In this document: positions 154 to 54,776 of the stretch, piece after piece
Position numbering within the stretch: the first letter of the stretch is position 1
Layout of the letters: every line of letters begins with the position of its first letter
Assembly: GCA_024638265.1 (NCBI GenBank)
Contig: JAHEKQ010000013.1
Location: 1-54,776 of the forward strand
Reading direction: 5' to 3'
From: Flammeovirgaceae bacterium
Lineage (GTDB): Bacteria; Bacteroidota; Bacteroidia; Cytophagales; Cyclobacteriaceae
DNA length: 54,776 nt
Position numbers and translations under genes: made by a program
Notes under the pieces: model-generated
Told to the model about the DNA's origin: nothing
What the model saw: the letters and a program-made list of their open reading frames with translations, nothing else
Databases searched by the model: none

Positions 154-690
154 CTACTGTTCTTCAGGAATAAATTCAATAGGAATCCTGATTTTAGTGT
201 CATCCCACGTCATAACCAGGTCTGCTTTTTCATTATTTTGTTCAAAGCGTATAGTGAAAGGCTCCCAAATAGTCCCATTAGTAGATTCTGCATTTGCCTT
301 AACCCTCAGAATATCAAGTTCCGGATTATAGGTGTAAGTTCCCCACTGTCCAAGTCCTTCGTTCAGGATAATTGTCCATTCATCTCTACCGGGTATTGTG
401 AATAGGGAATAGGTACCCGCATTAAGTTCCTCATCATTAAACAGAACGTCTTTCGTGATAGTAATTTCTGTGGCTTCGTTGGCTCCCGTTCGCCATACCT
501 CTCCAAACGGGACCAATCCGCCGAAAATCTCCCTCCCTTTCTTATGGGGTTGACAATAAGTAATCTTAATGTAACTGTCCTCGTATTTCATTGTGACAAT
601 AGCAGTGGGACTTGGACGAGGTTGAATTGCCTCCTGGCTATATGCCAGGGTGCCAAACATTAATATCAATACCACAAAAATTCCTCTCAT
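154..690 (-). CDS. DUF2911 family secreted protein
   Basis: A 178-residue protein with an N-terminal signal peptide (MRGIFVVLILMFGTLAYSQ). The mature part matches the DUF2911 family of Bacteroidota: a proline-rich start, then KGREIFGGLVPFGEVWRTGA and a GTYSLFTIPG segment, which are the conserved cores I recognise. The family is predicted to be extracytoplasmic and mostly beta, with no established biochemical role. Length is normal and the ATG at 690 is directly followed by the signal sequence. The divergent dCMP deaminase starts 64 bases away. Confidence 0.8.
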   Translation of the reverse strand: MRGIFVVLILMFGTLAYSQEAIQPRPSPTAIVTMKYEDSYIKITYCQPHKKGREIFGGLVPFGEVWRTGANEATEITITKDVLFNDEELNAGTYSLFTIPGRDEWTIILNEGLGQWGTYTYNPELDILRVKANAESTNGTIWEPFTIRFEQNNEKADLVMTWDDTKIRIPIEFIPEEQ

Positions 691-754
691 GTTACACTAT
701 TTTGAATTAGGATTTGAATATACGAACTTCCGTGCCAAAATTTGAAGGCCTTTT

Positions 755-28906: not shown

Positions 28907-30529
28907 TTACTTTCTTTGCTTATCCCTAATTGATTTAAAACTCACGCCTTCATTCCACTCCGGCCAATCGTCGTTGTTGGCAAGGTCCCGACCTATTTCG
29001 TAATACAGTTGAAGGTCAGAAGTAAGCCCCCTCAAATCCATGTCCTCAGTATATTCATCAGCTGGCTTATGGTACCGGTTGGATGTATAATTTTCCATTT
29101 CCTCCATCATCCAGCTTTCACCTTTTTCGGTATGTTCAATACCGTTATCAAGGTACAGGGCCGGAACACCCACTTTGGCAAAATTGAAATGGTCCGAACG
29201 GAAATAATACCCTTTTTCCGGGCTAGATTCAGCTTTGATTGTTCGTCCGGCAGTTTCAGCATGCTTTTTCAGATACTCATCTAATTCGCTGTTACCATAA
29301 CCGACTACTGCGATATCTACCGTTGGCCCAAAGGTATTCATGGCATCCATGTTGAGATTGGCAACCGTGTTTTCCAATGGGTAAATTGGATTCTCGGCGT
29401 AGTATTTTGATCCAAGGAGACCCTTTTCTTCGGCCGTTACCGCGAGCATTACTATAGATCTCTCGTGGGGTTCCGTTTCACTAAAAATGCGTGCCAGTTC
29501 AACAAGACTGGCAGTTCCGCTTGCATTATCATTTGCGCCGTTGAATATCTGATCCCCTTCCAAAGTCTTATTGACCCCCAGGTGATCCCAATGTGCTGTA
29601 TAAATAATATATTCATCAGGTCGTTGCGAACCTTCGATAAGTGCTACGACATTGTTACTGACCGACCTTTCAAATTCGGTAATTACTTCAATACTCATTG
29701 ATTGATCCAGTGATACTGCCTCAAATCCAGGGTCGACAGCTCTTTCCGAAACTTCTATAAAATCGAGACCTTCACTTTCGAAAAGCTTGATCGCTGCTGC
29801 TTCCGTGATCCATCCTTCAACAGCGCTCCTTCCCATATTGTTGTCAGGGGATACCAGGCCGAACCTCGTGGTTGACCAGCTTCCGGATACGACTTCCCAT
29901 GGATAACCGGCAGGCCCGGTCTGATGAATTACAAGGATTGCTTCAGCACCTTGTCTGGCTGCTTCCTCGTACTTATAAGTATATCTCCCATAGTAGGTCA
30001 TGGCCCTGCCATTGAAGAAATTGGGGTCTTCGGTATAGTAACCGGGATCATTTACAAGTACCAATACTGTTTTACCCTCCACATCCAGGTTGGCATAGTC
30101 ATTCCAATCATATTCCGGGGCGACAATACCATATCCTGCAAATACTATTTCTGAATCGGTAATAGAAACAGTATCCTCGATACGTTCGGTGAAAGCCATC
30201 ATATCATTTAAATACTCAAATTGATAACTTTCTTCTCCCTTAATATTTATGGGAGTTGATCTACCATTCATGGCGATCAGTGGAACTTCCTGAAAATAGC
30301 TATTTCCGTTACCGGGAGTTGCACCATATTTTTCAAATTCAGATGCTAGAAAGTTTATAGTCAGTTCTTCACCCAGCGTTGATGGACTCCTCCCTTCAAA
30401 TTCATCTGAGGCAAGCGTTTTAATAAGTCGGTGCAGGTGGTCTTCCCGTATTCCATCCGACATTCCCTCTTCATTATTACATGAATAGAGAAAGACAATA
30501 ATCAATAGAAGAAAAAATATTTTTTTCAT
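28907..30529 (-). CDS. M28 family zinc aminopeptidase lipoprotein
   Basis: 540 residues from the ATG at 30529; upstream methionines would precede the signal peptide MKKIFFLLLIIVFLYSC and its lipobox (Cys17). A protease-associated (PA) domain insertion is seen around residues 120-250. Metal-ligand motifs of M28 follow: YTAHWDHLG (His/Asp), NGANDNASGTASL (bridging Asp), VTAEEKGLLGS (catalytic and ligand Glu), NMDAMN and the late RSDHFNFAKVGVPAL (His). It is an exported aminopeptidase that would release N-terminal residues from peptides. It heads the operon with the BNR protein and YceI. Confidence 0.92.
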   Translation of the reverse strand: MKKIFFLLLIIVFLYSCNNEEGMSDGIREDHLHRLIKTLASDEFEGRSPSTLGEELTINFLASEFEKYGATPGNGNSYFQEVPLIAMNGRSTPINIKGEESYQFEYLNDMMAFTERIEDTVSITDSEIVFAGYGIVAPEYDWNDYANLDVEGKTVLVLVNDPGYYTEDPNFFNGRAMTYYGRYTYKYEEAARQGAEAILVIHQTGPAGYPWEVVSGSWSTTRFGLVSPDNNMGRSAVEGWITEAAAIKLFESEGLDFIEVSERAVDPGFEAVSLDQSMSIEVITEFERSVSNNVVALIEGSQRPDEYIIYTAHWDHLGVNKTLEGDQIFNGANDNASGTASLVELARIFSETEPHERSIVMLAVTAEEKGLLGSKYYAENPIYPLENTVANLNMDAMNTFGPTVDIAVVGYGNSELDEYLKKHAETAGRTIKAESSPEKGYYFRSDHFNFAKVGVPALYLDNGIEHTEKGESWMMEEMENYTSNRYHKPADEYTEDMDLRGLTSDLQLYYEIGRDLANNDDWPEWNEGVSFKSIRDKQRK

Positions 30530-30787
30530 AGGTTCCAATTTAATGAAAAGTAGAGGCCAAGTGCTCACAGATATTACAATACTGCTCATATTATGTGATG
30601 TTCGGTAGAGCATGGTTATAAAATTGTGTTGAATATTTCACTCGTTTCACAACCCGGATTGCCCTGTTTGGAAAGACTTTGGCTCATTTTTTGAATCGCA
30701 TGTACCATCCTCGTAGGAATAACTTGGTTTTATCCTTTTATCCAATGGGGTTTTGTACGAAATTGTGAAAAGTAAATTGTGTCAACT

Positions 30788-33010
30788 ATGAAGTATGTGT
30801 ACACCTTTCAAAAATCTGGCTTCTTCGCCAGTATTGTACTGCTTTCAGTACTCACTATTGTAAGTTCCTGTAGTTCTGGGAAAAAGGCCCTGGAGCGAGG
30901 TGATTATTACCAATCGGTAATGAAATCGGTAAATCGACTGAGGTCGAATCCCAATCACAAAAAGTCAAAGGAAACCTTGAGAATGGCCTATCCATTGGCT
31001 TTGAACTATTATGAGACTGAAGTTACAAATCTGCAGGCCAGGAATGACCGCAATAAATGGCGTGGAATTCTCAATGCCTATATCTCAATAAATTCAATGT
31101 ATGAGGGAATCCGGACAGCACCAGGGGCAATTCAAGTGGTATCTGATCCCAAGAATTATTACGACGAACTAGAAACCGCAAGGAATAATGCAGCTGAGGA
31201 GAGCTACCAATTTGGACTCGTAGAATTGGCGAAGGGTACACGAGAAGGGGGAAAGGAGGCATATTTGGCCTTCCAGGATGCCAATACCTATGTAAACAGC
31301 TACAAGGATGTAATCCAGAAAATGGAAGAAGCCTATTGGATCGCTACACTTAAAGTATTAATCGCACCGATTCCTGTGACAAATGCCCGTGTTCAGTTGA
31401 GTGCGAATTTCTTTGAGGACAAGATCCATGAAGAGTTGAAGAATGCTCCGATTAATCAATTTGTAAGGTTTATGACTGAAGCAGAGTTGATGGATCTCAA
31501 CATGAATCCGGATCATGTGCTGGAACTTAGCTTTGATGAGTTCACGATAGGAGAGGTATATCTTGTCGAAAAGCAAGTAGAGGCTTCAAAGGACAGTGTA
31601 AAAGTTGGTGAAGCGACTTTCGCGGCCAACACAAATAATTCGAATAATCAAAACAATGTTTCGAATCTTACAAATACTGTAAACAATACTAATAATTCCA
31701 ACACAGTCAATAATACGAATACGTCAAATACGTCAAACACAACGAACAATACCAATACAACCAATACGACAAACAATACCAATACGACGAATACGACAAA
31801 CAACACCAATACGACGAATACGACAAACAATACCAATACGACGAATACGACGAACAATACCAATACGTCGAATACGACAAACAATACCAATACGACGAAT
31901 ACGACGAACAATACCAATACGTCGAATACGACAAACAATACCACTACTACCAATAACACAAGTGGAACAGGTGAGACAGGCAACACTGGCAACACTGGAA
32001 ATACTGGAAATACTGGAAATACTGGAGAGACAACCTACTCAGGAAAAAAAGTACAAATTTGCCAGGCTAACCAAACTAAATCAGTTGCAGTGGAAGACTT
32101 GGTTGACTACCTCAACCAGGGAAGTTCTGTTTATCCATGTGGCACATCAAAGAACAGAAAGGTTCGGGTTTGCCATGTTGCAGGTAATAGCGGAAACACC
32201 AATACTCTTGAGGTTTCAGTTTATTCGCTGAAGGCACATCTTCAACATGGTGACACCATTGGAGGATGTGATGGATCGGGTTATGAAGTAGCTGAGAAAG
32301 GACCTGGTAACAACCAGGGAGGAAATGAGAAAGAGAAGAAAGAGAAGAAAGGCGGAGAAGATAAGAAGGGCGGAGAAGATAAGAAAAGTGGAGAAGATAA
32401 GAAAAGTGGAGAAGATAAGAAAAGTGGAGAAGATAAGAAGGGCGGAGAAGAGAAGAAGGGCGGAGAAGAGAAGAAGGGCGGAGAAGATAAGAAGGGAGGA
32501 GAGGATAAGAAAAGTGGAGAAGTTAAGAAAGGTGGAGAAGATAAGAAGGGCGGAGAAGAGAAGAAAGGCGGAGAAGAGAAGAAGTCCGGTGAAAAGAAAA
32601 AGAAGAAAGGCGGAAACGGAAATCCTTTATTGATTGAAACACCATACTCTACGGCTTCGACTTCAGACTTTATGCCTATAGATACCACGATCAATGTTTA
32701 CACCACCGTAAAGGCAAAAGTTTTCATATTCGAAAAGACGGTGAGAAGTACAGGAACTCTTGATATGAAGATTCTGGAAGCTAATACCGGTTCACTTGTT
32801 GCAACAGATAAATTTTCGGGGGAACATATTTGGATGTCGCAATGGGGTTATTTCAATGGTGATGAAAGAGCATTGACGGAAGAACAGAAGCAGATAGTCT
32901 CCCAAAGGGAACAAATACCTCCATCTGAGCAGGATATGTTCATTGGGTTCTCCAGGCCAATCTTCCAGCAATTAATGACGAAGATCAGGAATTACTACGG
33001 CAGATACTAA
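30788..33010 (+). CDS. Repeat-rich lipoprotein with tandem cysteine motifs
   Basis: 740 residues from the ATG at 30788 (a GTG 9 bases earlier is also open). A lipobox (VSSC, about Cys28) anchors it. Residues about 30-280 are a helical domain of no recognised family. Then come an Asn/Thr block of eight 9-residue units (NTTNNTNTT), a GNT run, two tandem cysteine motifs (QICQAN ... SSVYPC and RVCHVAGNSG ... AHLQHGDTIGGC), a block of fourteen 6-residue units (GGEDKK type), and a C-terminal beta-type domain (about 620-740). The second cysteine motif matches a short CHxxG...HLxHGD...C pattern found in other bacterial surface proteins. The role is unknown; a terminator follows. Confidence 0.82.
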   Translation: MKYVYTFQKSGFFASIVLLSVLTIVSSCSSGKKALERGDYYQSVMKSVNRLRSNPNHKKSKETLRMAYPLALNYYETEVTNLQARNDRNKWRGILNAYISINSMYEGIRTAPGAIQVVSDPKNYYDELETARNNAAEESYQFGLVELAKGTREGGKEAYLAFQDANTYVNSYKDVIQKMEEAYWIATLKVLIAPIPVTNARVQLSANFFEDKIHEELKNAPINQFVRFMTEAELMDLNMNPDHVLELSFDEFTIGEVYLVEKQVEASKDSVKVGEATFAANTNNSNNQNNVSNLTNTVNNTNNSNTVNNTNTSNTSNTTNNTNTTNTTNNTNTTNTTNNTNTTNTTNNTNTTNTTNNTNTSNTTNNTNTTNTTNNTNTSNTTNNTTTTNNTSGTGETGNTGNTGNTGNTGNTGETTYSGKKVQICQANQTKSVAVEDLVDYLNQGSSVYPCGTSKNRKVRVCHVAGNSGNTNTLEVSVYSLKAHLQHGDTIGGCDGSGYEVAEKGPGNNQGGNEKEKKEKKGGEDKKGGEDKKSGEDKKSGEDKKSGEDKKGGEEKKGGEEKKGGEDKKGGEDKKSGEVKKGGEDKKGGEEKKGGEEKKSGEKKKKKGGNGNPLLIETPYSTASTSDFMPIDTTINVYTTVKAKVFIFEKTVRSTGTLDMKILEANTGSLVATDKFSGEHIWMSQWGYFNGDERALTEEQKQIVSQREQIPPSEQDMFIGFSRPIFQQLMTKIRNYYGRY
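31736..31951 (+). repeat. Coding tandem repeat, 27-bp unit x 8
   Basis: Eight in-frame units of 27 bases encode NTTNNTNTT with Ser/Thr variants (last unit NTTNNTTTT). The units are nearly identical at DNA level (codons AAT/AAC, ACG/ACC/ACA), so slippage or recombination could change copy number in steps of 9 residues without breaking the frame. Confidence 0.9.
32351..32602 (+). repeat. Coding tandem repeat, 18-bp unit x 14
   Basis: Fourteen in-frame units of 18 bases encode [GS]GE[DEV]KK, giving a strongly charged, probably disordered or helical spacer in the lipoprotein. Variants GGEDKK, SGEDKK and GGEEKK occur in runs, which suggests segmental duplication. Array length may be variable between strains. 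Confidence 0.9.
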
Positions 33011-33190: not shown

Positions 33191-34093
33191 ATGAAGGACG
33201 AAAAAATGAACAATTTCCTAGAGACTTACCATGATATCATGTTATGGTCTGCCCTGGGTCTTGTAGCACTGGCGATCATATGGTATATCATTCACCTCAT
33301 AAGGTATGCCGGTATCAGCGAATACAAGGCCAAATATGACTATGTCAGGGAAAAGGAAATTAAGCATTATAGGGCCAGTTTTTATATGATTGCAATTGCA
33401 GTATTTGCCTTTGTGAACCTGTATGCTGTGGGTGACTTTGATTGGGTCTGGTTTTCCATGCGTGCATTTATGGGAATAGCTGTGGGTACGCTTGTCGGTT
33501 ATGTAGCCAATCTGATCCTGTTGTATTATTATCCGGCTACGCTAGATAAGAAGTTGAAAAAATGGAGGTATACTCCCCGGATTAATCCAAAAACAGGAAA
33601 TAAAATGAGGCTTCTTTCCGAAGAGGAGGAAGATGTTCACCTCGATGAAGGAATGCAGGCGGAAGAGGAAGCATTCTCTGTGGATTACGATGTTTGGATT
33701 GACGAAGAAACGGGAGATGTGAAAATCGAGAAGTACCAAGGTCATTTGCAGGCGGTACAATGTAACAATTGCGGATTCTTCACCATGAGGGTAATTAAGG
33801 AAGAAATCCTGTCTGAACCCACCGATACGGAAGAAGGTGAACTTGTTAAGCATTATGAGTGTACTTACTGTGGTTCAATAAGAGCTACTCAGCATGATAT
33901 TGCACCACTTAAGTCTGGCGAGATCGATCATGTTGATCCGACTTCAGTGAAGTTTGCAGGCAAGCGTCTGGTGGCAAGTGTTGAGGTTGAAATCACTGCA
34001 AATGACGGACACAAAAAAGTATATGTATTTCAAACCGTTGACCAGGCCACTAAATTCCTGGAGGAATTTGATTACGATAAGGTAGCTGAATAA
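33191..34093 (+). CDS. Membrane protein with C-terminal zinc ribbon, unknown function
   Basis: 300 residues. Three hydrophobic segments (about 17-38, 63-80 and 86-112) are followed by a long soluble part. An acidic stretch (SEEEEDVHLDEGMQAEEE, 143-160) precedes a four-cysteine zinc ribbon: CNNC at 191-194 and CTYC at 224-227. The remaining tail is alpha/beta. I recognise no named family. A second ATG five codons in (33206, MNNFL) is an alternative start. Flanked by terminators on both sides, so it is a single-gene transcript, with a palindrome in its leader. Confidence 0.72.
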   Translation: MKDEKMNNFLETYHDIMLWSALGLVALAIIWYIIHLIRYAGISEYKAKYDYVREKEIKHYRASFYMIAIAVFAFVNLYAVGDFDWVWFSMRAFMGIAVGTLVGYVANLILLYYYPATLDKKLKKWRYTPRINPKTGNKMRLLSEEEEDVHLDEGMQAEEEAFSVDYDVWIDEETGDVKIEKYQGHLQAVQCNNCGFFTMRVIKEEILSEPTDTEEGELVKHYECTYCGSIRATQHDIAPLKSGEIDHVDPTSVKFAGKRLVASVEVEITANDGHKKVYVFQTVDQATKFLEEFDYDKVAE

Positions 34094-34112
34094 GCTATTC
34101 CAAAAAATATAT

Positions 34113-34145
34113 AAGGTTGCCCTGTTTGGGGGCAACCTTTTTTTG
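34113..34145 (+). terminator. Rho-independent terminator
   Basis: AAGGTTGCCC (34113-34122), loop TGTTTGG, GGGCAACCTT (34130-34139) and a T run. It lies 20 bases after the zinc-ribbon gene. Confidence 0.92.
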
Positions 34146-34225
34146 TGTTCGCGGGTTAAAAAGAAGTAATGGGCTAAGCTTAAATTTTTTGGTATCTTTT
34201 CTGCTTAGTACCTCTTAAAGAATTC

Positions 34226-36265
34226 ATGAAGATAGTTATGAGGAGATTATTGTTGTTTTTCGGGTTTTTACTGATCAGCTCGGGTATACTCTTCGGCCAG
34301 GAAGAAGAGAACCGGCTCGAAGTAAAACCCCACTATACAAAGGAAGCGGTAACCGTTGTGCGTTTATTGGATATGTACCACTTTAAAAAAGTGGAGTTTG
34401 AGGATTCCCTGTCTGCCGTAATACTTGATAACTATCTCGCTAACCTGGATAATGGTAAACAATATTTCTATGAGTCTGACATCTCACTTATTCGTAAATA
34501 CTATAAACATCGAATTGATGACCTGACCAAAGAGGGAAATGTCAGGCCGGCATTCTCAATCTATGAGGTGTTCGAAAAACGATTTGATGAGAGGATGAAA
34601 TATCTCCGTGAAAATTTACTCGATTATGAGTTTGATTTTACGTTGGATGAAGATTACGAAACGGATCGTGAAAAAATAGCCTGGATTGATTCAGAGGAGG
34701 AAATGAATGATCTCTGGCGCAAAATTATTAAAAGCCAATACTTGAGCCTCAAGCTCAATGGCAAAGAAGAAGCGGATATCAGAAAGGCACTCACAGACCG
34801 TTACAACAATTTTGAAAAACGACTGAAGCAGTACAGGAGTGAGGATGTATTCCAGTTGTTTATGAACCAGGTAGCCGAGGCATATGATCCACATACCAAT
34901 TACTTCTCTCCTGTAACATCCGAGCGATTCAGGCAAAATATGACACTGTCATTAGAGGGTATTGGTGCTCGACTTGTATCGGAAAATGACTACACCAAAA
35001 TTGTTGAGATCGTCCCGGGAGGTCCGGCATATAAGAGCAATCAACTTCATCCCGAAGACCGAATTATAGGCGTCGGACAAGGCAGGGAAGCAGATGCGGA
35101 GATGGAAGATGTGATTGGTTGGAGGCTCGATGACGTAGTGAGTAAGATCAAGGGTCCAAAGGGAACCTGGGTGACTTTGCAGATAATTCCCGCGGAATCA
35201 GGATTGGATGGCCCCACGAAATTGGTTACGCTCCAACGAGAGAAGATTAAGCTTGAGGATCAAAAAGTTACCAGCAAGGTTTATGAAATCAGGAAAGACG
35301 GCAAGGATTTCAAGATGGGTGTAATTACCGTTCCCGGGTTTTATTGGGATTTTGAAGCAGCCCAGGCGGGTGAAACAGATTATAACAGTACCACACGCGA
35401 TGTAAAGAAAATATTAGTGAACCTCAAGGAGCAGAAAGTTGATGGCGTTTTGATGGATTTACGTGATAATGGGGGTGGTTCGCTCAAGGAAGCCATTGAT
35501 CTCACAGGTTTGTTCATCAAGAAAGGTCCTGTGGTTCAGGTGAAAAATTCAGTAAATAAAGTAGATATCAATGAGGACGAAGACCCGGATATTACCTGGG
35601 ATGGCCCTTTGACAGTAATGATAAACCGCTTCAGCGCCTCTGCCTCAGAAATTTTTGCAGGAGCAATCCAGGACTATAACAGGGGCGTAGTGATCGGTGA
35701 ACAAAGCTTTGGCAAAGGTACTGTTCAAACTATAATAGACCTGCAACGCTTTCTGCCACGCGAAAAAGAGAAACTCGGTCAACTAAAAATCACATTTCAG
35801 AAGTTTTACCGCGTTACCGGAAGTAGTACACAACACCTTGGTGTGATGCCTGATATAACTTTGCCATCTGCTTTTGATGCAGATGAGTACGGTGAGAGCA
35901 GCCAGCCGAGCGCACTGCCATGGGATCAGATAAAAGAGACCAAGTTTTCGAGTACCAATGAGATTTCCGGCGATTTGTTGGCCAGCTTGAATGCCAGTCA
36001 TTCTAATCGCCTTCAGAACGATCCTATGCTTAAGCAGTTGGTTAAAGACGTAAACGAACTTCGTGACTCAATGAACGATACGAAAATAAGTTTGAATGAA
36101 GAATCACGAAAGAAGGAGAGGGAAAGGAGAAGTAAAAGCGGAAATGACCTGGGAACAGAAATTGTTAAGGAAGGCGAATTGGAAGATATTATTGAAATTG
36201 AAGACACCTACCTACGAGAAGGAGTGATTGTGCTTTCTGAACTCGTGAAATCCAAGATCGGTTAA
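34226..36265 (+). CDS. prc: Carboxy-terminal processing (tail-specific) protease Prc
   Basis: A 679-residue periplasmic serine protease of the S41 family. A signal peptide (to about residue 25) is followed by an N-terminal helical domain (30-230), a PDZ domain (about 235-330, with LSLEGIGARLV and VVSKIKGPKGTW), the protease core (345-545) and a C-terminal helical DUF3340-type domain. The catalytic pair is Ser472 in SASASEIFAG and Lys497 in SFGKGTVQ; their 25-residue spacing equals that of E. coli Tsp (430/455). It degrades or trims exported proteins from their C-termini. Its stop overlaps the convergent TrpF-like gene by 4 bases. Confidence 0.95.
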   Translation: MKIVMRRLLLFFGFLLISSGILFGQEEENRLEVKPHYTKEAVTVVRLLDMYHFKKVEFEDSLSAVILDNYLANLDNGKQYFYESDISLIRKYYKHRIDDLTKEGNVRPAFSIYEVFEKRFDERMKYLRENLLDYEFDFTLDEDYETDREKIAWIDSEEEMNDLWRKIIKSQYLSLKLNGKEEADIRKALTDRYNNFEKRLKQYRSEDVFQLFMNQVAEAYDPHTNYFSPVTSERFRQNMTLSLEGIGARLVSENDYTKIVEIVPGGPAYKSNQLHPEDRIIGVGQGREADAEMEDVIGWRLDDVVSKIKGPKGTWVTLQIIPAESGLDGPTKLVTLQREKIKLEDQKVTSKVYEIRKDGKDFKMGVITVPGFYWDFEAAQAGETDYNSTTRDVKKILVNLKEQKVDGVLMDLRDNGGGSLKEAIDLTGLFIKKGPVVQVKNSVNKVDINEDEDPDITWDGPLTVMINRFSASASEIFAGAIQDYNRGVVIGEQSFGKGTVQTIIDLQRFLPREKEKLGQLKITFQKFYRVTGSSTQHLGVMPDITLPSAFDADEYGESSQPSALPWDQIKETKFSSTNEISGDLLASLNASHSNRLQNDPMLKQLVKDVNELRDSMNDTKISLNEESRKKERERRSKSGNDLGTEIVKEGELEDIIEIEDTYLREGVIVLSELVKSKIG

Positions 36266-54660: not shown

Positions 54661-54776
54661 TTATGGGTTCACGATTAAAGTTCACGAGTTCACGAGATTA
54701 GAGTTCACGGGAATGCCGTTTGGATCCATACTACCCATCTACTCATCTACGCATCTACCCGTCCACGCGTCTACGC
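54661..54776. repeat. Octamer tandem arrays GTTCACGA and CTACCCAT
   Basis: GTTCACGA (or one-base variant) lies at 54667, 54680, 54688 and 54703; the two middle copies are adjacent. CTACCCAT-type octamers run without gaps from 54731 to the window end: CTACCCAT, CTACTCAT, CTACGCAT, CTACCCGT, CCACGCGT, CTACGC. No gene is seen here. The array may continue beyond the window. Confidence 0.8.

Follow-up and report, generated by a model that had tools for sequence, protein, structure and literature searches.

A conserved Bacteroidota lipoprotein with a CsgG/PelC/PqiC-like core and a cysteine/histidine module in a predicted hairpin-tip insert

The lipoprotein gene and its core

The window, which is the whole stretch of DNA that was analysed (54,776 nucleotides), contains an open reading frame of 740 amino acids at 30788-33010 on the forward strand, which starts with ATG and is preceded by an in-frame GTG at 30779. 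An earlier note on this DNA had taken the product for a lipoprotein, and this is borne out by the lipobox at its N-terminus (...VSSC28SSGKK). The features of the gene are collected in Table 1.

Table 1. Features of the lipoprotein gene in the window, in order along the sequence
Feature	Positions	Strand	Residues and description	Basis
Signal peptide and lipobox	30788..30871	+	aa 1-28, ...VSSC28, then SSGKK	
TPR-type helical domain	30869..31348	+	aa 28-187	AlphaFold2 (pLDDT mostly 96-98); TPR by profile and fold
CsgG/PelC/PqiC-like domain, first half	31346..31618	+	aa 187-277, with the rising hairpin strand at 243-277	AlphaFold2, fold match
Hairpin-tip insert	31619..32683	+	aa ~278-632 (~355 residues)	absent from most homologues found
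27-bp array, x8.5	31727..31955	+	Asn/Thr repeat, presumed disordered linker	TRF (89% match); pLDDT
9-bp array, x4.7	31985..32026	+	NTG (Asn-Thr-Gly) repeat	TRF
CH module 1, degenerate	32048..32140	+	aa 421-451	alignment to intact module 1 of L089 and L125; pLDDT ~88-92
CH module 2, intact	32159..32269	+	aa 458-494; C462 H463 H484 H487 G488 D489 C494	predicted beta-beta-alpha
18-bp array, x13.6	32340..32583	+	(G/S)GE(D/E)KK charged linker, presumed disordered	TRF (89%); pLDDT
CsgG/PelC/PqiC-like domain, second half	32687..33007	+	aa 634-740, descending strand and FNGDERAL motif	comparison, AlphaFold2, fold

An M28 peptidase gene (28907-30613) lies upstream in the divergent orientation, and the segment downstream (33191-36265) holds a gene of 300 amino acids and a tail-specific S41 protease. 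The neighbours were compared using the window's own genes as queries, with open reading frames of at least 120 amino acids, and ten loci were also inspected by eye. The 300-amino-acid gene recurs beside the core in loci L089 and L125 only, while the S41 protease is found near the core in these two loci and also in three Pedobacter loci (L123, L124, and L136, at about 30% identity). An M28-like peptidase is present in L101 and L105 (31-36% identity), upstream and divergent, in the same arrangement as in the window. Gene neighbours were considered as a clue to function and rejected, given that none of them is common to the whole family and that they point to no function. Short imperfect tandem repeats, with units of 16-24 bp, are found at the end of the window (54667-54776).

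The structure of the protein was modelled with AlphaFold2 from an alignment of 51 rows, with a mean pLDDT of 71.7 for the whole chain and a pTM of 0.52. The values reach 96-98 over most of the core and fall below 50 at residues 283-416 and 506-628, which are the two repeat blocks and are presumably disordered. Two long predicted strands, at residues 243-277 (35 residues) and 634-664 (31 residues), flank the insert, which in the model sits at the tip of the long beta-hairpin of the core.

Structural comparison of residues 187..740 with VIA-align gave as matches the DUF330/PqiC-type protein 2iqi_B (Z 11.4, 127 aligned residues, 2.8 A), CsgG (6lqh_A, Z 10.3, 163 aligned, 4.7 A; 6l7a_A, Z 10.0), and PelC (5t11_K, Z 10.2, 117 aligned, 3.0 A). 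The modelled core shares the CsgG-type fold, and this is not specific for CsgG, given that PelC and 2iqi match equally well. Foldseek alone, used with the full model, gave no match at E <= 0.001. CsgG is the curli secretion lipoprotein of the outer membrane, and the window protein resembles it in this fold, but differs from it by an additional N-terminal TPR domain, by a charged hairpin that does not clearly span the membrane, and by the lack of a Pfam or profile match. Direct comparison of the core profile with true CsgG found nothing, and the Pfam CsgG model (PF03783) matched none of 31 plain members of the family (those without the insert) at E <= 1, gave no CsgG row for the window protein, and in the same genome matched only another gene, a true CsgG at G000:C102:6116-6760. 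The Pfam matches of the 31 plain members scanned are all at chance level. Filing of the whole protein under a known family was attempted with Pfam, NCBIfam, and PHROGs and abandoned, with rows at chance level only.

A link to the CsgG domain was obtained with hhalign, in which the plain family aligned with the lipoproteins L162 and L164 with a probability of 94.9% (E 4e-8, 315 columns), a score to which the lipobox and the TPR region contribute and in which the L162/L164 side consists of two sequences only. These two proteins, from two other genomes of the order, combine TPR and CsgG domains. They share with the window protein the lipobox, a TPR-like N-terminus, and an F/YxGDxR motif, but score above the CsgG cut-off of Pfam and have no CH insert. 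Given the fold matches and the profile link to L162/L164, together with the lack of a direct profile match to CsgG, the core is described as CsgG-like and not as CsgG. In fold it resembles CsgG, PelC, and PqiC, and it is distantly related to the TPR-CsgG lipoproteins. Among PelC and DUF330/PqiC-type lipoproteins, which are similar to it in fold, none is known to have a TPR domain or an insert of this kind. According to PMC12141448, twelve PelC subunits form a periplasmic ring, which sits on a barrel of the outer membrane. A distant plain paralogue of the core, with 21% identity, is encoded in the genome of the window (L002, G000:C41:8467-9207).

The insert and its repeat linkers

Plain homologues, among them those of Ohtaekwangia koreensis (L099) and Chryseolinea (L138 and L140), have a core of about 380 amino acids, in which a short turn corresponds to residues ~278-632 of the window protein. 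The set of 59 genomes, made of the window's own and 58 relatives, gave matches in 27, of which 26 have the core and one (G051) matches by the module only. The insert is present in three of the 26 core-bearing genomes (G000, G007, and G038), while the sequences of the other 23, all of them aligned, run through the insertion point. A survey of named records, in which the queries were insert-bearing proteins and both patterns used were drawn from the core, gave 55 core loci (53 Bacteroidota records, one labelled Balneolales, and one labelled Opitutaceae MAG), with a long insert at the same point in 17, no insert in 37, and one fragment (L142). At least one CH module was found in 16 of the 17 insert-bearing loci, and L109 (4540-6051) has the hairpin-tip insert without the module. 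The spacing between DS[VI] and VYGTVKA is 8-23 residues in 29 of the 37 plain loci, where the other eight were not measured and values of 16 or more reflect capture of an earlier site by the pattern. The same spacing is 66-365 residues in 18 insert-bearing proteins, using anchors that differ by about two residues and leaving the fragment L125 unmeasured.

In the phylogenetic tree, the insert-bearing proteins are distributed in a clade of ten rows that includes the window protein (support 100/99), a clade of seven rows (100/100), and L028, which stands apart. The starred branches of this tree force at least two changes of the insert, and a single change suffices in none of the 200 bootstrap trees. 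A single insert-bearing clade is not rejected by the AU test (p 0.142). The insert may have been gained once or more than once.

Within the insert, the in-frame 27-bp Asn/Thr and 18-bp charged repeats that had been noticed previously are real, with 8.5 and 13.6 copies according to TRF, which lists the 18-bp array also under periods of 90 and 108 bp. The third array, of 9-bp units, was absent from the earlier note. The 27-bp and 18-bp arrays had also been described as nearly identical at the DNA level, and the identity at a lag of one unit is 0.896 in both of them. Shuffling of the bases (1000 replicates) gave maxima of 0.446 for the 27-bp array and 0.500 for the 18-bp array, and resampling of synonymous codons for the same peptides (1000 replicates) gave maxima of 0.841 and 0.847. 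The likeness of the DNA is, therefore, above what the peptides force and points to tandem growth of the arrays, and not merely to a repetitive protein. The arrays are of ~230-245 bp in a draft assembly of 173 contigs, and their sizes may be wrong.

The composition of the linkers changes with the lineage. Asn/Thr-rich linkers are found in the window protein, L089, and L125, KPxD-rich linkers in L092, L093, L141, and L143, a Pro/Thr-rich linker in L097, and Gly/Ser-rich linkers in L106 and L117, while those of L090 and L091 are short and Asn-rich. The nearest homologue (L089, 70% core identity) has an Asn/Thr array with other periods and does not have the charged 18-bp array. In the sequences compared, the DNA arrays are lineage-specific and their copy number is not the conserved feature. 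In six sister pairs, the core and module align at 82-97% identity with 0-1 gaps, while the linkers align at 40-93% identity with 0-18 gaps, with an identity below that of the core and module in nearly every case. The supposition that the length of these blocks can vary is supported in this form: between related species it shifts more readily than that of the core or module. The fact that the module and the core are kept while the linkers diverge suggests that the repeats act as a changeable tether and that the module is the cargo that is kept.

The CH module

The CH-module family is defined here by the pattern C-H ... H-x2-H-G-D ... C, which is present in module 2 together with a beta-beta-alpha prediction. 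The suggestion that the second cysteine module matches a recurrent motif is, thus, upheld: it belongs to a recurrent family. Modelling of the cysteine modules, as had been proposed, gives small folded units with pLDDT of 87-94 in both of them, and the model of the module itself is a beta-beta-alpha arrangement with pLDDT of about 92 in its centre. Module 1 ('ICQ...YLNQGS...C') keeps both cysteines, while the three histidines and the aspartate are replaced by Q, Y, Q, and S. Its description as a degenerate copy agrees with the presence of an intact CH module at this place in L089 and L125, which are the closest homologues with an insert and the only ones on which this reading is based.

The 126 profile hits correspond to 108 distinct module sequences, of which 11 were left out for a gap in a key column. 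In the remaining 97, the full C-H-H-H-G-D-C set is present in 87, which is a count within the retrieved sequences and not an unbiased rate, given that the HMM was built from an alignment of 29 rows, which had been selected with a pattern already requiring most of the 'invariant' residues; owing to this selection and to the 11 sequences left out, loss of cysteine could be under-counted. All of the other ten keep both cysteines and the glycine: between one and four of the His/Asp residues are missing in nine of them, and the tenth deviates only by an X. Module 1 of the window protein, which is not among the 97, follows the same pattern with all four His/Asp residues lost. The nine degenerate modules are found in L050, L055, L056, L057, L059, L195, L196, and L197, several of them with an extra cysteine in the second strand. 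The fact that degenerate copies keep the cysteines and lose the His/Asp residues indicates that the two sets are separable, from which we infer a structural disulphide and a separate His/Asp site, the simplest reading of which is a metal site. In L184, the His/Asp residues seem to be kept and the second cysteine lost, which cuts against the disulphide. From its residue conservation, the module may bind a metal.

No row over the module was given by Pfam or NCBIfam in the module-bearing proteins scanned (those of the window, L003/L200, and L022), nor by PHROGs in the two module-bearing proteins scanned. A GH16 glycosidase found in the PDB by sequence (E 0.0097) was considered as a relative of the module and judged a chance match, as it lacks the HxxHGD histidines. 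A structure search with the module alone gave nothing at E <= 0.001, with a best Z of 4.1 and no convincing neighbour. The predicted order of beta-beta-alpha, the Cys/His at strand 1, and the H-x2-H on the helix are all reminiscent of C2H2 zinc fingers, from which the CH module differs by the absence of a C-x2-C knuckle, by its extracytoplasmic location, and by having cysteines that are separable from the histidines. No C2H2 zinc finger is listed among the structural matches of the module, which excludes nothing. Strings of the module sequence were not found in print within open-access PubMed Central.

The module is not confined to this lipoprotein. At E <= 0.001, 41 of the 291 genomes in a sample of the window's order have a match to it, as do 30 of the 296 in a sample of the phylum. 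The same CH...HxxHGD...C arrangement occurs in secreted host proteins that differ from one another. In the genome of the window itself, a protein of ~1617 amino acids (L200, G000:C133:12600-18500) combines a pair of intact CH modules close to its N-terminus with an Asp-rich linker and numerous Ig/PKD domains. A family of proteins of ~465 amino acids, from one other family of Bacteroidota (f35) and with an N-terminus that appears pilin-like by eye, has the module near residue 95 in six genera (L172, L173, L176, L178, L179, and L180). Judged also by eye, the module is carried by vWA-like proteins (L044/L045) and, on IMG/VR contigs, by wall-protein-like proteins with LPxTG-like anchors (L145, L149-L153, and L155). 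It was not found in named phage records. In the haloarchaeon Halorussus limi, it lies at the end of a hypothetical protein encoded on a plasmid (L202:1501-1608, NZ_CP096660.1).

The hairpin turn could tolerate any sequence, in which case the insert would be neutral DNA of low complexity, and the common module that it captured would be without function. The arbitrary composition of the linkers across lineages, the L109 insert without a module, and the decay of module 1 in the window protein would all be expected of such a filler. The module is nonetheless kept in nearly all of the inserts, shows in the six sister pairs a conservation close to that of the core, with no gaps, against linkers that diverge, and occurs in inserts of two well-supported groups and of L028. 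This makes a neutral origin of the whole insert quite unlikely.

Side of the membrane and proposed role

A signal for surface export of Bacteroidota lipoproteins, located after the lipidated cysteine, is given in PMC5080379 as K-(D/E)2, SDDDD, or SDDFE. In the window protein this cysteine is followed by SSGKKALE, which contains no export signal according to that rule, as it is worded in PMC5080379 for other genera. No acidic pair follows the lipidated cysteine in any of the 78 family proteins whose N-terminus could be read, which are the 80 rows minus the fragments L125 and L142 that lack it, were partly read by eye, and include some identical rows. The periplasmic side of the outer membrane is for this protein the default, with the surface as a possibility.

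The earlier note had proposed a surface location, with the repeats forming an adjustable stalk that presents a small domain; the lipoprotein would be flipped to the cell surface and slippage in the arrays would alter its reach. It is true that the arrays are in frame, that their DNA likeness exceeds the constraint of the peptides, that they have the low model confidence of disordered stretches, and that the length of the linkers differs between sister species, and the same module is found on proteins with LPxTG-like wall anchors. The missing export signal in the window protein and its 78 readable relatives speaks against this stalk, as does the absence of the 18-bp array in L089. Moreover, a single folded domain holds the insert at both of its ends, which makes it an internal loop and not a stalk that presents a domain at its tip. 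Taken together, a slippage-tuned surface stalk is considered unlikely.

A different way to place the module outside the cell would be a pore similar to CsgG, where the hairpin crosses the outer membrane like the first transmembrane hairpin of CsgG and brings the insert to the outside, with the pore surrounded by the many CH modules of a ring of subunits. The range aligned with CsgG (186..740, which is a range only and not a set of residue-by-residue pairs) spans the insertion point, and the predicted strands of the hairpin are very long. CsgG presumably has a membrane hairpin at the point equivalent to that of the window hairpin, and a lipid anchor that faces the periplasm. The hairpin of the window protein is, however, highly charged, with mean charged fractions in the two phases of 0.34/0.44 for the rising strand and 0.20/0.28 for the falling strand, versus 0.00-0.19 for CsgG strands measured likewise. 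Given this difference and the lack of a CsgG profile match, such a crowned pore is considered quite unlikely.

The reading that is preferred, with a probability of roughly 0.5, is that of a loop-extended form of an outer-membrane lipoprotein, conserved in Bacteroidota and as yet unnamed, in which length-tolerant tethers hold a disulphide-stapled CH module with a metal site. The alignments and the structural model support the architecture, namely a TPR and CsgG/PelC/PqiC-like core with a predicted hairpin of which the turn is replaced by linkers holding one or two CH modules. In the proposed mechanism, two linkers grown by repeats and presumably disordered would take the place of the turn of the long beta-hairpin and would serve as length-tolerant tethers, allowing the CH module to reach away from a platform that is tethered to the membrane and perhaps forms a ring. 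The module would be a beta-beta-alpha unit stapled by one disulphide between its two conserved cysteines, and its His/His/His/Asp site would bind either a divalent metal ion or, by way of this metal, a ligand. It could thus be a metal-dependent or metal-sensing binding head that is held at reach from the membrane platform. In the species of the window, module 1 would have decayed to a structural spacer and module 2 would do the work.

A wider and rather doubtful proposal is that Bacteria and Archaea share in the CH module a metal-binding domain that acts outside the cytoplasm and has not been described before, a beta-beta-alpha unit of about 35 residues with a disulphide and a separable H-H-H-D site. 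It would have been grafted, possibly repeatedly, at one and the same hairpin tip of an outer-membrane lipoprotein that forms rings, giving a ring of tethered metal-dependent heads.

The fold type of the core is already known, while the loop-extended form built around an undescribed module is new. Small Cys/His modules that low-complexity linkers join to secreted proteins are readily missed, and the CH module has no match in the model libraries scanned despite its frequency in the order and in the phylum. A function established for a single CH module would carry over to many hypothetical secreted proteins. The host protein shows repeat growth making tethers around a conserved module and is also a natural experiment, in which one hairpin tip is found with and without cargo in related bacteria. 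Two genomes, G059 and G113, contain both an insert-bearing and a plain copy; the plain paralogues are located at G059:C15:216385-217497 and G113:C1:2239985-2241109, and were found in a search that scored three candidates per genome.
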